This document shows, piece by piece, positions 16,831 to 18,120 of a stretch of DNA of 64,000 bases. The stretch's first letter is position 1. Each line of letters starts with the position of its first letter. The position numbers and the translations under genes are program-made. Source of the DNA: Alphaproteobacteria bacterium (GTDB lineage Bacteria > Pseudomonadota > Alphaproteobacteria > Rhizobiales > Rhizobiaceae). Below the pieces are notes generated by a model. It ran no database searches, was not told the DNA's origin, and saw nothing but the letters and a program-made list of their open reading frames with translations. Location: NCBI GenBank assembly GCA_018823835.1, contig JAHJHT010000002.1, positions 1,178,001 to 1,242,000 of the forward strand, written 5' to 3'.

Positions 16831-17241
16831 ATGCAAGGCGTTGCACGCAATTTCTTCACGCTGGCAATCGGTTACGCAATCGTCGGAATGCTGCTGGGCC
16901 TGTCGATGGCGATGAGCCACGACCACGCCCAGATGCCTACTCACGCTCACATCATGGTGCTTGGCTGGATCATGTCGTCGGTCTTTGCCTTTTTCTACCA
17001 TCTGGTGCCCGCAGCAGCATCGCGGCTGGCGACGGTGCACTTCTGGCTTTCCGGCATCAGCGGGATCGTGCTGGTCGCTGGCCTGTTCATGATGATCGGC
17101 GGGAATCCATCCATCGAGCCCGTCGTAGCCGTGGCTTCGATGGCCTTCTTCGTCGGTATGTTGCTGTTTGCCTGGATCGCGCTCGGAACGATGTGGAAGA
17201 GCACCACCGTCGCTTCGCCGCGGAATGCCGCTGCAAGTTGA
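16831..17241 (+). CDS. Small haem-copper-oxidase-subunit-I-like membrane protein
   Basis: 136 residues from the ATG at 16831, chosen over 16804 because AAGGAG lies 7 bases upstream. There are four membrane segments. The segment THAHIMVLGWIMSSVFAFFYHL contains His38, His40 and His57 and resembles the H-x-H-x-x-x-x-G-W helix of haem-copper oxidase or NO reductase subunit I. The protein is far too short for a complete subunit I, and no other oxidase gene is nearby. It belongs to a group often annotated 'cytochrome-c oxidase' in rhizobia. Haem binding is only inferred. Confidence 0.7.
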   Translation: MQGVARNFFTLAIGYAIVGMLLGLSMAMSHDHAQMPTHAHIMVLGWIMSSVFAFFYHLVPAAASRLATVHFWLSGISGIVLVAGLFMMIGGNPSIEPVVAVASMAFFVGMLLFAWIALGTMWKSTTVASPRNAAAS

Positions 17242-17261
17242 AGCAAACAATTACGGGAGCG

Positions 17262-17276
17262 TTAACCGTCCATTAA
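17262..17276. promoter_or_regulatory. Perfect CtrA-type box (TTAA-N7-TTAA), upstream site
   Basis: TTAA at 17262-17265, seven bases, TTAA at 17273-17276. It matches the alphaproteobacterial CtrA consensus exactly. It lies about 25 bases before the three-hairpin RNA candidate, where a CtrA-activated promoter would place its -35 region. A -10-like TTTACT lies at 17289-17294. Confidence 0.7.
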
Positions 17277-17299
17277 GCTTTACGGGCGTTTACTGTGTG

Positions 17300-17394
17300 C
17301 ATCCAGTGATCTGGATTCTTACCAAGTGGCTGGAGCCACTTCGTTTGACGCCTCCCTGTTAACTCCTGAGAGCCGCATCTGCGGCTCTTTTTTT
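17300..17394 (+). ncRNA. Candidate trans-acting small RNA (three hairpins, CtrA box upstream)
   Basis: About 95 bases contain three perfect hairpins in series. SL1 is ATCCAG-TGAT-CTGGAT (17301-17316). SL2 is AAGTGGCT-GG-AGCCACTT (17324-17341). SL3 is AGAGCCGC-ATCT-GCGGCTCT (17369-17388) followed by six T, a textbook intrinsic terminator. The unpaired stretch between SL2 and SL3 is C-rich, with CCTCCC and CTCCT that could pair with Shine-Dalgarno sequences. The 5' end is estimated from the CtrA-type box at 17262. The simplest alternative is that SL3 just terminates the upstream membrane-protein gene. Known rhizobial cell-cycle RNAs with three stem-loops (EcpR1, GspR) are possible relatives, but I could not compare them. 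Confidence 0.55.
17369..17394 (+). terminator. Intrinsic terminator (SL3 of RNA candidate)
   Basis: 8-bp perfect stem AGAGCCGC/GCGGCTCT with an ATCT loop, then TTTTTT. It ends either the RNA candidate or the transcript of the gene ending at 17241. Confidence 0.92.
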
Positions 17395-17446
17395 GTCCCG
17401 AGCCGCAGCAATCCGGCATAGAGCGCCGGAGCGGGCCACCGCGCCA

Positions 17447-17461
17447 TTAACCTTTTATTAA
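17447..17461. promoter_or_regulatory. Perfect CtrA-type box upstream of rcdA
   Basis: TTAA at 17447-17450, seven bases, TTAA at 17458-17461, an exact match to the CtrA consensus. It is 128 bases before the RcdA-family start codon and downstream of the preceding terminator, so it most likely serves the rcdA promoter. Confidence 0.75.
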
Positions 17462-17589
17462 ACATACGCTTGCCTTGAACGGCTCCGAAGCGCATTTTCA
17501 ACCTCCTTGCTGTAGGCGTCAGGGGCAGCTAAACGCGGTCGCCGACGAAGCCGGGAACAGTTCGCGACGAGAGCGTGGGGGCGTAAAGT

Positions 17590-18120
17590 ATGAGCGAGCC
17601 ATCGAGGGACGGTGCCAACACCATCAAGCTCGCGGAGCGCCGTGTCTTTACGCAATCCTTCAAGCCGCTCTACGACGAGGGCATGGGGCTGGTCGAGCAG
17701 GCGGCCGAGTATCTCGACGGCAAGGGCCGCCTTGAAGCCAAGAACCTTTCTCGCCTGGCCGCGACCCTCTATGCGGCCGAATCGATGCGGCTGACGACGC
17801 GCCTCATGCAGATTGCATCCTGGCTGTTGCTGCAGCGTGCCGCCAACTCTGGTGAAATGAGCCGCGACCAGGTCGCGGCCGAGAAATCCAAGGTACGGCT
17901 CGACACCGCATCGGCAAATGCAGAGGCCGCCGGCTGGGACGAGCTTCCCGGAGATTTCGTCGCTCTTGTGCGCCATTCGCTCAACCTGCAGTCGCTGGTG
18001 CGGCGGATGGATGACGAGATTTACGGCAAGAACGCCATGGCTTCGGACGGCTCCGCGCCGGCACCCAATCCGGTTTCCGATCAGATCAGCTTGCTCAACA
18101 CGGCCTTCGCGCGCGGCTGA
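17590..18120 (+). CDS. rcdA: RcdA-family protein (DUF1465), CtrA proteolysis adaptor
   Basis: 176-residue helical protein of Pfam DUF1465, the family of Caulobacter RcdA. With CpdR, RcdA delivers the master regulator CtrA to the ClpXP protease at the cell-cycle transition. Conserved features are the N-terminal FTQSFKPLYDEGMGLVE helix, the LAATLYAAESMRLTTRLMQI helix and the C-terminal SLVRRMDDEIYG stretch. A perfect CtrA-type box lies upstream, consistent with feedback control of CtrA degradation. It precedes ruvC on the same strand by 121 bases. Function is transferred from the family. Confidence 0.85.
   Translation: MSEPSRDGANTIKLAERRVFTQSFKPLYDEGMGLVEQAAEYLDGKGRLEAKNLSRLAATLYAAESMRLTTRLMQIASWLLLQRAANSGEMSRDQVAAEKSKVRLDTASANAEAAGWDELPGDFVALVRHSLNLQSLVRRMDDEIYGKNAMASDGSAPAPNPVSDQISLLNTAFARG

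Follow-up and report, generated by a model that had tools for sequence, protein, structure and literature searches.

A BjrC1505-family small RNA with a conserved CtrA-type promoter box upstream of rcdA in an alphaproteobacterial genome

Several bacterial small RNAs (sRNAs) resemble the locus described here in one respect or another. CcnA (CCNA_R0094) of Caulobacter is a non-coding RNA of the CtrA circuit with a predicted CtrA promoter site, and its C-rich loop is described as acting near ribosome-binding sites. EcpR1 and GspR of Sinorhizobium are stem-loop sRNAs with a cell-cycle link, while mmgR/suhB (RF00519), SorX (RF02784) and SorY (RF02651) carry an unpaired CUCCCU motif in front of a GC-rich terminator. 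For the BjrC1505 family (RF02356), named for an RNA of Bradyrhizobium japonicum, our literature search found neither a described regulator or function nor a published link to CtrA or rcdA; a mention in the original 2012 BjrC paper is possible. We analysed a stretch of 64 000 nt (hereafter the window), in which an earlier note had proposed a small-RNA gene with three hairpins, flanked by two CtrA-type boxes and followed by rcdA.

Positions 17252-17394 match RF02356 with 68.7 bits (curated cut-off 50) over the entire model (1-140 of 140). Since this Rfam search, which the earlier note had suggested, gave a full-length match above the cut-off, the window RNA belongs to BjrC1505, a known and otherwise uncharacterised alphaproteobacterial sRNA family, and the idea of a new family is not borne out. 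Core and terminator are common to the window RNA and its homologs, and the genome carries one copy of this type of RNA. Compared with the Bradyrhizobium RNA and its relatives, the window RNA is alike in covariance model, core, three-stem layout, terminator and position upstream of rcdA, but SL1 and SL2 differ in sequence, the CtrA box is exact (in many relatives it is one base off) and a second box precedes rcdA. The suggestion of EcpR1 or GspR found no support: EcpR1 is reported between divK-pleD and rpmG and was rejected, and GspR, reported in Sinorhizobium only, between SMc03844 and SMc03845, appears to differ in location and taxonomic range, the features compared; the window RNA lies between a membrane-protein gene and rcdA-ruvC. 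Both also differ in their pairing sites, and GspR is without a known promoter signature. CcnA differs in its location, the chromosomal origin, and in its targets, ctrA and gcrA, and no clear S. meliloti homolog has been reported for it. We also rejected mmgR/suhB (23.6 bits, cut-off 41) and SorY (21.3 bits, cut-off 111), whose sub-threshold matches are due to the CUCCCU motif shared with the window RNA (SorY also shares a GUU motif); SorX gave no match in the window in the Rfam search. SorX and SorY differ further in being reported as controlled by stress sigma factors.

Table 1. Features of the sRNA-rcdA locus in window coordinates
Feature	Position	Strand	Remarks
CtrA-type box 1, TTAACCGTCCATTAA	17262..17276	+	5' base at -39 from predicted RNA start
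Probable -10 region TTTACTGTG (hexamer TACTGT 17291-17296)	17289..17297	+	From conservation
sRNA gene, BjrC1505 family, predicted transcript	17301..17394	+	Rfam RF02356, transcript-only model R1, fold; predicted ends
SL1	17301..17316	+	ATCCAG-TGAT-CTGGAT; 6 bp, loop UGAU
SL2	17324..17341	+	AAGTGGC-TGGA-GCCACTT; double changes in 5 of 7 counted pairs
Unpaired core GUUUGACGCCUCCCUGUUAA, nearly invariant	17343..17362	+	Anti-Shine-Dalgarno CCUCCC; conservation in homologs
SL3, intrinsic terminator with U tract	17369..17394	+	9-bp stem AGAGCCGCA/TGCGGCTCT (17369-17388); seven T (17388-17394)
CtrA-type box 2, TTAACCTTTTATTAA	17447..17461	+	143-129 bases before rcdA ATG
rcdA ribosome-binding region, GGGGGCGU	17577..17584	+	Predicted to pair with core ACGCCUCC (17348-17355)
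rcdA, CtrA-proteolysis adaptor	17590..18120	+	PF07323/DUF1465; ruvC next

Three stable stem-loops lie between the boxes, the third being the terminator, and the predicted RNA folds at -35.6 kcal/mol (z -4.4 versus shuffled sequence). Fold, terminator and Rfam match all point to a small-RNA gene between the boxes, as had been proposed. The three hairpins stand, but SL3 was described as an 8-bp stem with six T and needs correction (Table 1); the C-rich stretch between SL2 and SL3 is indeed unpaired. The recommended covariation check confirmed the hairpins: among 64 diverse sequences, 98% of cells at 19 pairs hold standard pairs, and double changes occur at 10 pairs, compared with 2.2 in shuffles (0 of 500 reached 10) and with 1-4 when the pairing partners were slid as a control. 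The unpaired core, GUUUGACGCCUCCCUGUU, about 18 nt with CCUCCC, is almost invariant among the homologs; a diverged Rhizobium-type clade keeps CUCCCUGUU and has lost GACGC. A small protein encoded by the RNA was rejected, the 18-codon GTG frame showing no conservation.

Searches with RF02356 in three genome samples gave matches in 331 of 397 genomes (order), 96 of 121 (family) and 40 of 385 (class); the transcript-only model R1, which leaves out the promoter, finds 72 of the 385 class genomes, many of its weakest matches being other CUCCCU RNAs. The window gene after the hairpins is indeed of the RcdA family, and this linkage holds widely: among 167 distant loci, 120 have rcdA downstream in the same orientation, and none has it upstream or antisense. 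The 47 remaining loci are in many cases weak matches or truncated at a contig end, and some class members of the RNA family do not lie beside rcdA. Such same-strand linkage in 120 loci would also suit hairpins that serve as an rcdA leader or attenuator, i.e. a cis element within a long transcript running from box 1 through the terminator, and Agrobacterium rcdA has several start sites together with upstream CtrA motifs. We regard such a leader as unlikely, given the strong terminator, the nearly invariant core typical of trans-acting sRNAs, the homologs away from rcdA (L220-L222, L228) that keep box and core, and the separate box 2 nearer rcdA within the family. Tandem copies of BjrC1505-type RNAs occur in one distant family (f106), at L105 (1301-1443 and 1501-1647, 200 bases apart, upstream of rcdA) and also on contigs C10 and C15 of G210.

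Both exact TTAA-N7-TTAA boxes were found where the earlier note had placed them, and they are the only such sites in the 64 kb (0.01 expected; two sites in 0 of 100 shuffles). Among 80 Mesorhizobium/Aminobacter-type loci, 78 have an exact box 1. Scanning 140 distant loci with the CTCCCTG core as anchor and a threshold of 7 of 8 consensus bases, we found a CtrA-type box upstream of the RNA in 138 (exact in 75), nearly always 84-97 bases upstream of the anchor; mononucleotide shuffles reached this threshold in about 12 loci and gave 1.1 exact boxes, while displaced windows in these loci usually contained none. As the Rfam model spans the box region, RF02356 matches are mildly selected for boxes, and we therefore fetched loci again by the RcdA protein alone: box 1 was exact in 77 of the 79 Mesorhizobium/Aminobacter loci spanning it. 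In 126 of 220 loci SL1 begins 39 nt after the first base of the box. The interval between box 1 and SL1 holds a conserved -10-like TTTACTATG; in Mesorhizobium, GTTTACTATG is conserved, with variable bases just 3' of it. In Caulobacter, activated promoters have a full CtrA motif starting near -35, and at -39 in ctrA P2 (PMC4287350). The full box in the window begins at -39 relative to the predicted start and shares this geometry, which makes activation of the sRNA promoter by CtrA the likeliest reading. The proposed CtrA box in an sRNA promoter is supported at the sequence level by the nearly fixed spacing in the distant loci.

The Rfam consensus in the box 1 region reads UUUA-N7-UUAA, which suggests that the promoter was curated as part of the 'RNA'. 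Apparently model positions 1-50 count the CtrA promoter as RNA, and the 5' stem modelled there is doubtful, as many of its pairs are non-standard in the match to the window. Separately, homologs away from rcdA at L220-L222 and L227 (~2500) share the identical box TTAATTGTAATTTAA; a CtrA-type box can therefore persist without rcdA linkage.

The upstream membrane-protein gene ends at 17241, its stop codon 20 bases before box 1, a proximity that would allow the RNA to be a 3' UTR product or read-through of this gene. We consider this very improbable, because a conserved box 1 and a conserved -10 region separate the upstream gene from the RNA, and in many loci with box and RNA (L002-L005, L008 and others) the upstream gene was not detected.

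Box 2 is exact in 80 of 80 Mesorhizobium-type loci, 23 of 29 other loci of the family and 8 of 10 Rhizobium-type loci, but in only 1 of 54 other loci of the order; its conservation is confined to the family. A previous comparative study described CtrA control of rcdA as conserved (PMC2877005), and CtrA is bound at the rcdA promoter region of S. meliloti with rcdA mRNA unaffected (PMC4433202). The earlier note had CtrA driving both an sRNA and its own degradation factor. The sRNA box of this proposal stands; the rcdA part is uncertain, because box 2 is strong in the family only and S. meliloti rcdA mRNA does not change despite CtrA binding. Conversely, box 1 might mainly be the class-wide CtrA site of rcdA itself, or a repressor site, with the RNA by-passed or little transcribed. 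The ascription of CtrA control to rcdA in the comparative work and the CtrA-bound rcdA promoter regions of Caulobacter and S. meliloti fit such a role; the nearly fixed box-to-RNA spacing argues against it, and the unchanged S. meliloti rcdA mRNA upon CtrA depletion fits a bound site that serves another transcript. We judge this role of box 1 quite unlikely, and we infer that the conserved CtrA site belongs mainly to the sRNA. BjrC1505 could then explain why CtrA binds before S. meliloti rcdA without a change in rcdA mRNA.

From the computed family assignment, structure, covariation, class-wide CtrA box and rcdA linkage we infer transcription in this organism, CtrA activation and the kind of targets: the locus probably encodes a CtrA-activated, free-standing, trans-acting BjrC1505 sRNA with its own terminator that blocks ribosome-binding sites. 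Phosphorylated CtrA would probably activate the promoter via the full box, most likely in predivisional cells; the sRNA would end at the SL3 terminator, which lies about 195 nt upstream of rcdA, and its unpaired core (GACGCCUCCCUGUU) would probably pair in trans with Shine-Dalgarno regions and thereby block translation. The near-fixed CtrA box in almost every homolog, together with the rcdA linkage, is the reason for placing BjrC1505 in the CtrA cell-cycle circuit, in which few sRNAs are known.

An anti-Shine-Dalgarno role of the C-rich strand had been considered possible, and the nearly invariant unpaired CCUCCC is in line with it: purine-rich ribosome-binding sites are possible partners of the core, by analogy with the anti-SD motifs of the AbcR and NfeR RNAs (PMC7143759). 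One candidate is rcdA. In the window the core pairs with the rcdA start region at -18.6 kcal/mol (mean of 52 gene starts, -12.1), and the rcdA ribosome-binding site pairs modestly better than those of other genes in 4 of 4 groups (top 14-18% of genes), an advantage that persists against cores with shuffled flanks and when testing only the CUCCCU flanks. As the p-values of these tests ignore relatedness, rcdA is a candidate target only. If it were the target, the CtrA-made sRNA would lower RcdA and protect CtrA, a positive feedback, and some Rhizobium-type rcdA leaders do contain AACAGGGA, which matches the seed over 8 nt. Nevertheless, the effect is modest, any anti-SD RNA pairs with G-rich ribosome-binding sites and the exact pairing register varies between clades, so that we view this feedback as tentative and rather improbable. 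The broader version would make BjrC1505 an ancient RNA arm of the CtrA circuit, activated by CtrA throughout the class and delaying CtrA proteolysis by pairing with the adjacent rcdA ribosome-binding site, an arm which earlier work logged as CtrA control of rcdA. It is likewise speculative, and we doubt it to a similar degree.

For the preferred reading, a trans-acting sRNA, target prediction gave no clear strong target. Duplex energies with ctrA mRNA equal those of shuffles and other genes, no better than background. The exact complement of the core occurs in the own genome at the gene itself only, and the remaining matches of a strict complement search there look chance-like and are mostly coding. 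An extended motif, AACAGGGAG, is about as frequent before start codons as permuted ACA/CAA controls. Three of the five own-genome genes with AACAGGGAG code for periplasmic substrate-binding proteins, but 6 of 16 control genes do as well, so that this is a property of AGGGAG sites generally; for a further control motif, with G changed to A, the genes found were judged by eye only. Among 21 examined genes of the own genome (G000) with an AGGGAG ribosome-binding site (exact motif matches), 9 encode periplasmic solute-binding proteins (L371, L373, L374, L412, L413, L416, L417, L422 and L423). Such genes may be natural targets for CUCCC-type sRNAs.

Two further elements were noticed in the sampled genomes. 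A different RNA-like element, often in small genomes (L263, L265, L267, L270, L278, L279 and L282, ~2500), consists of a UCUCCC hairpin, then (G)AAGCCUCCCUGUU and a terminator; it has partial, sub-threshold similarity to SorX/mmgR, neither a CtrA box nor rcdA nearby, and is possibly an unnamed family. In G392, a coding element starting with MAQNSVQLQKGLSITAFLEQYG is repeated more than 20 times, chiefly at the ends of contigs (L436 and L457 are examples), and looks like an insertion sequence.
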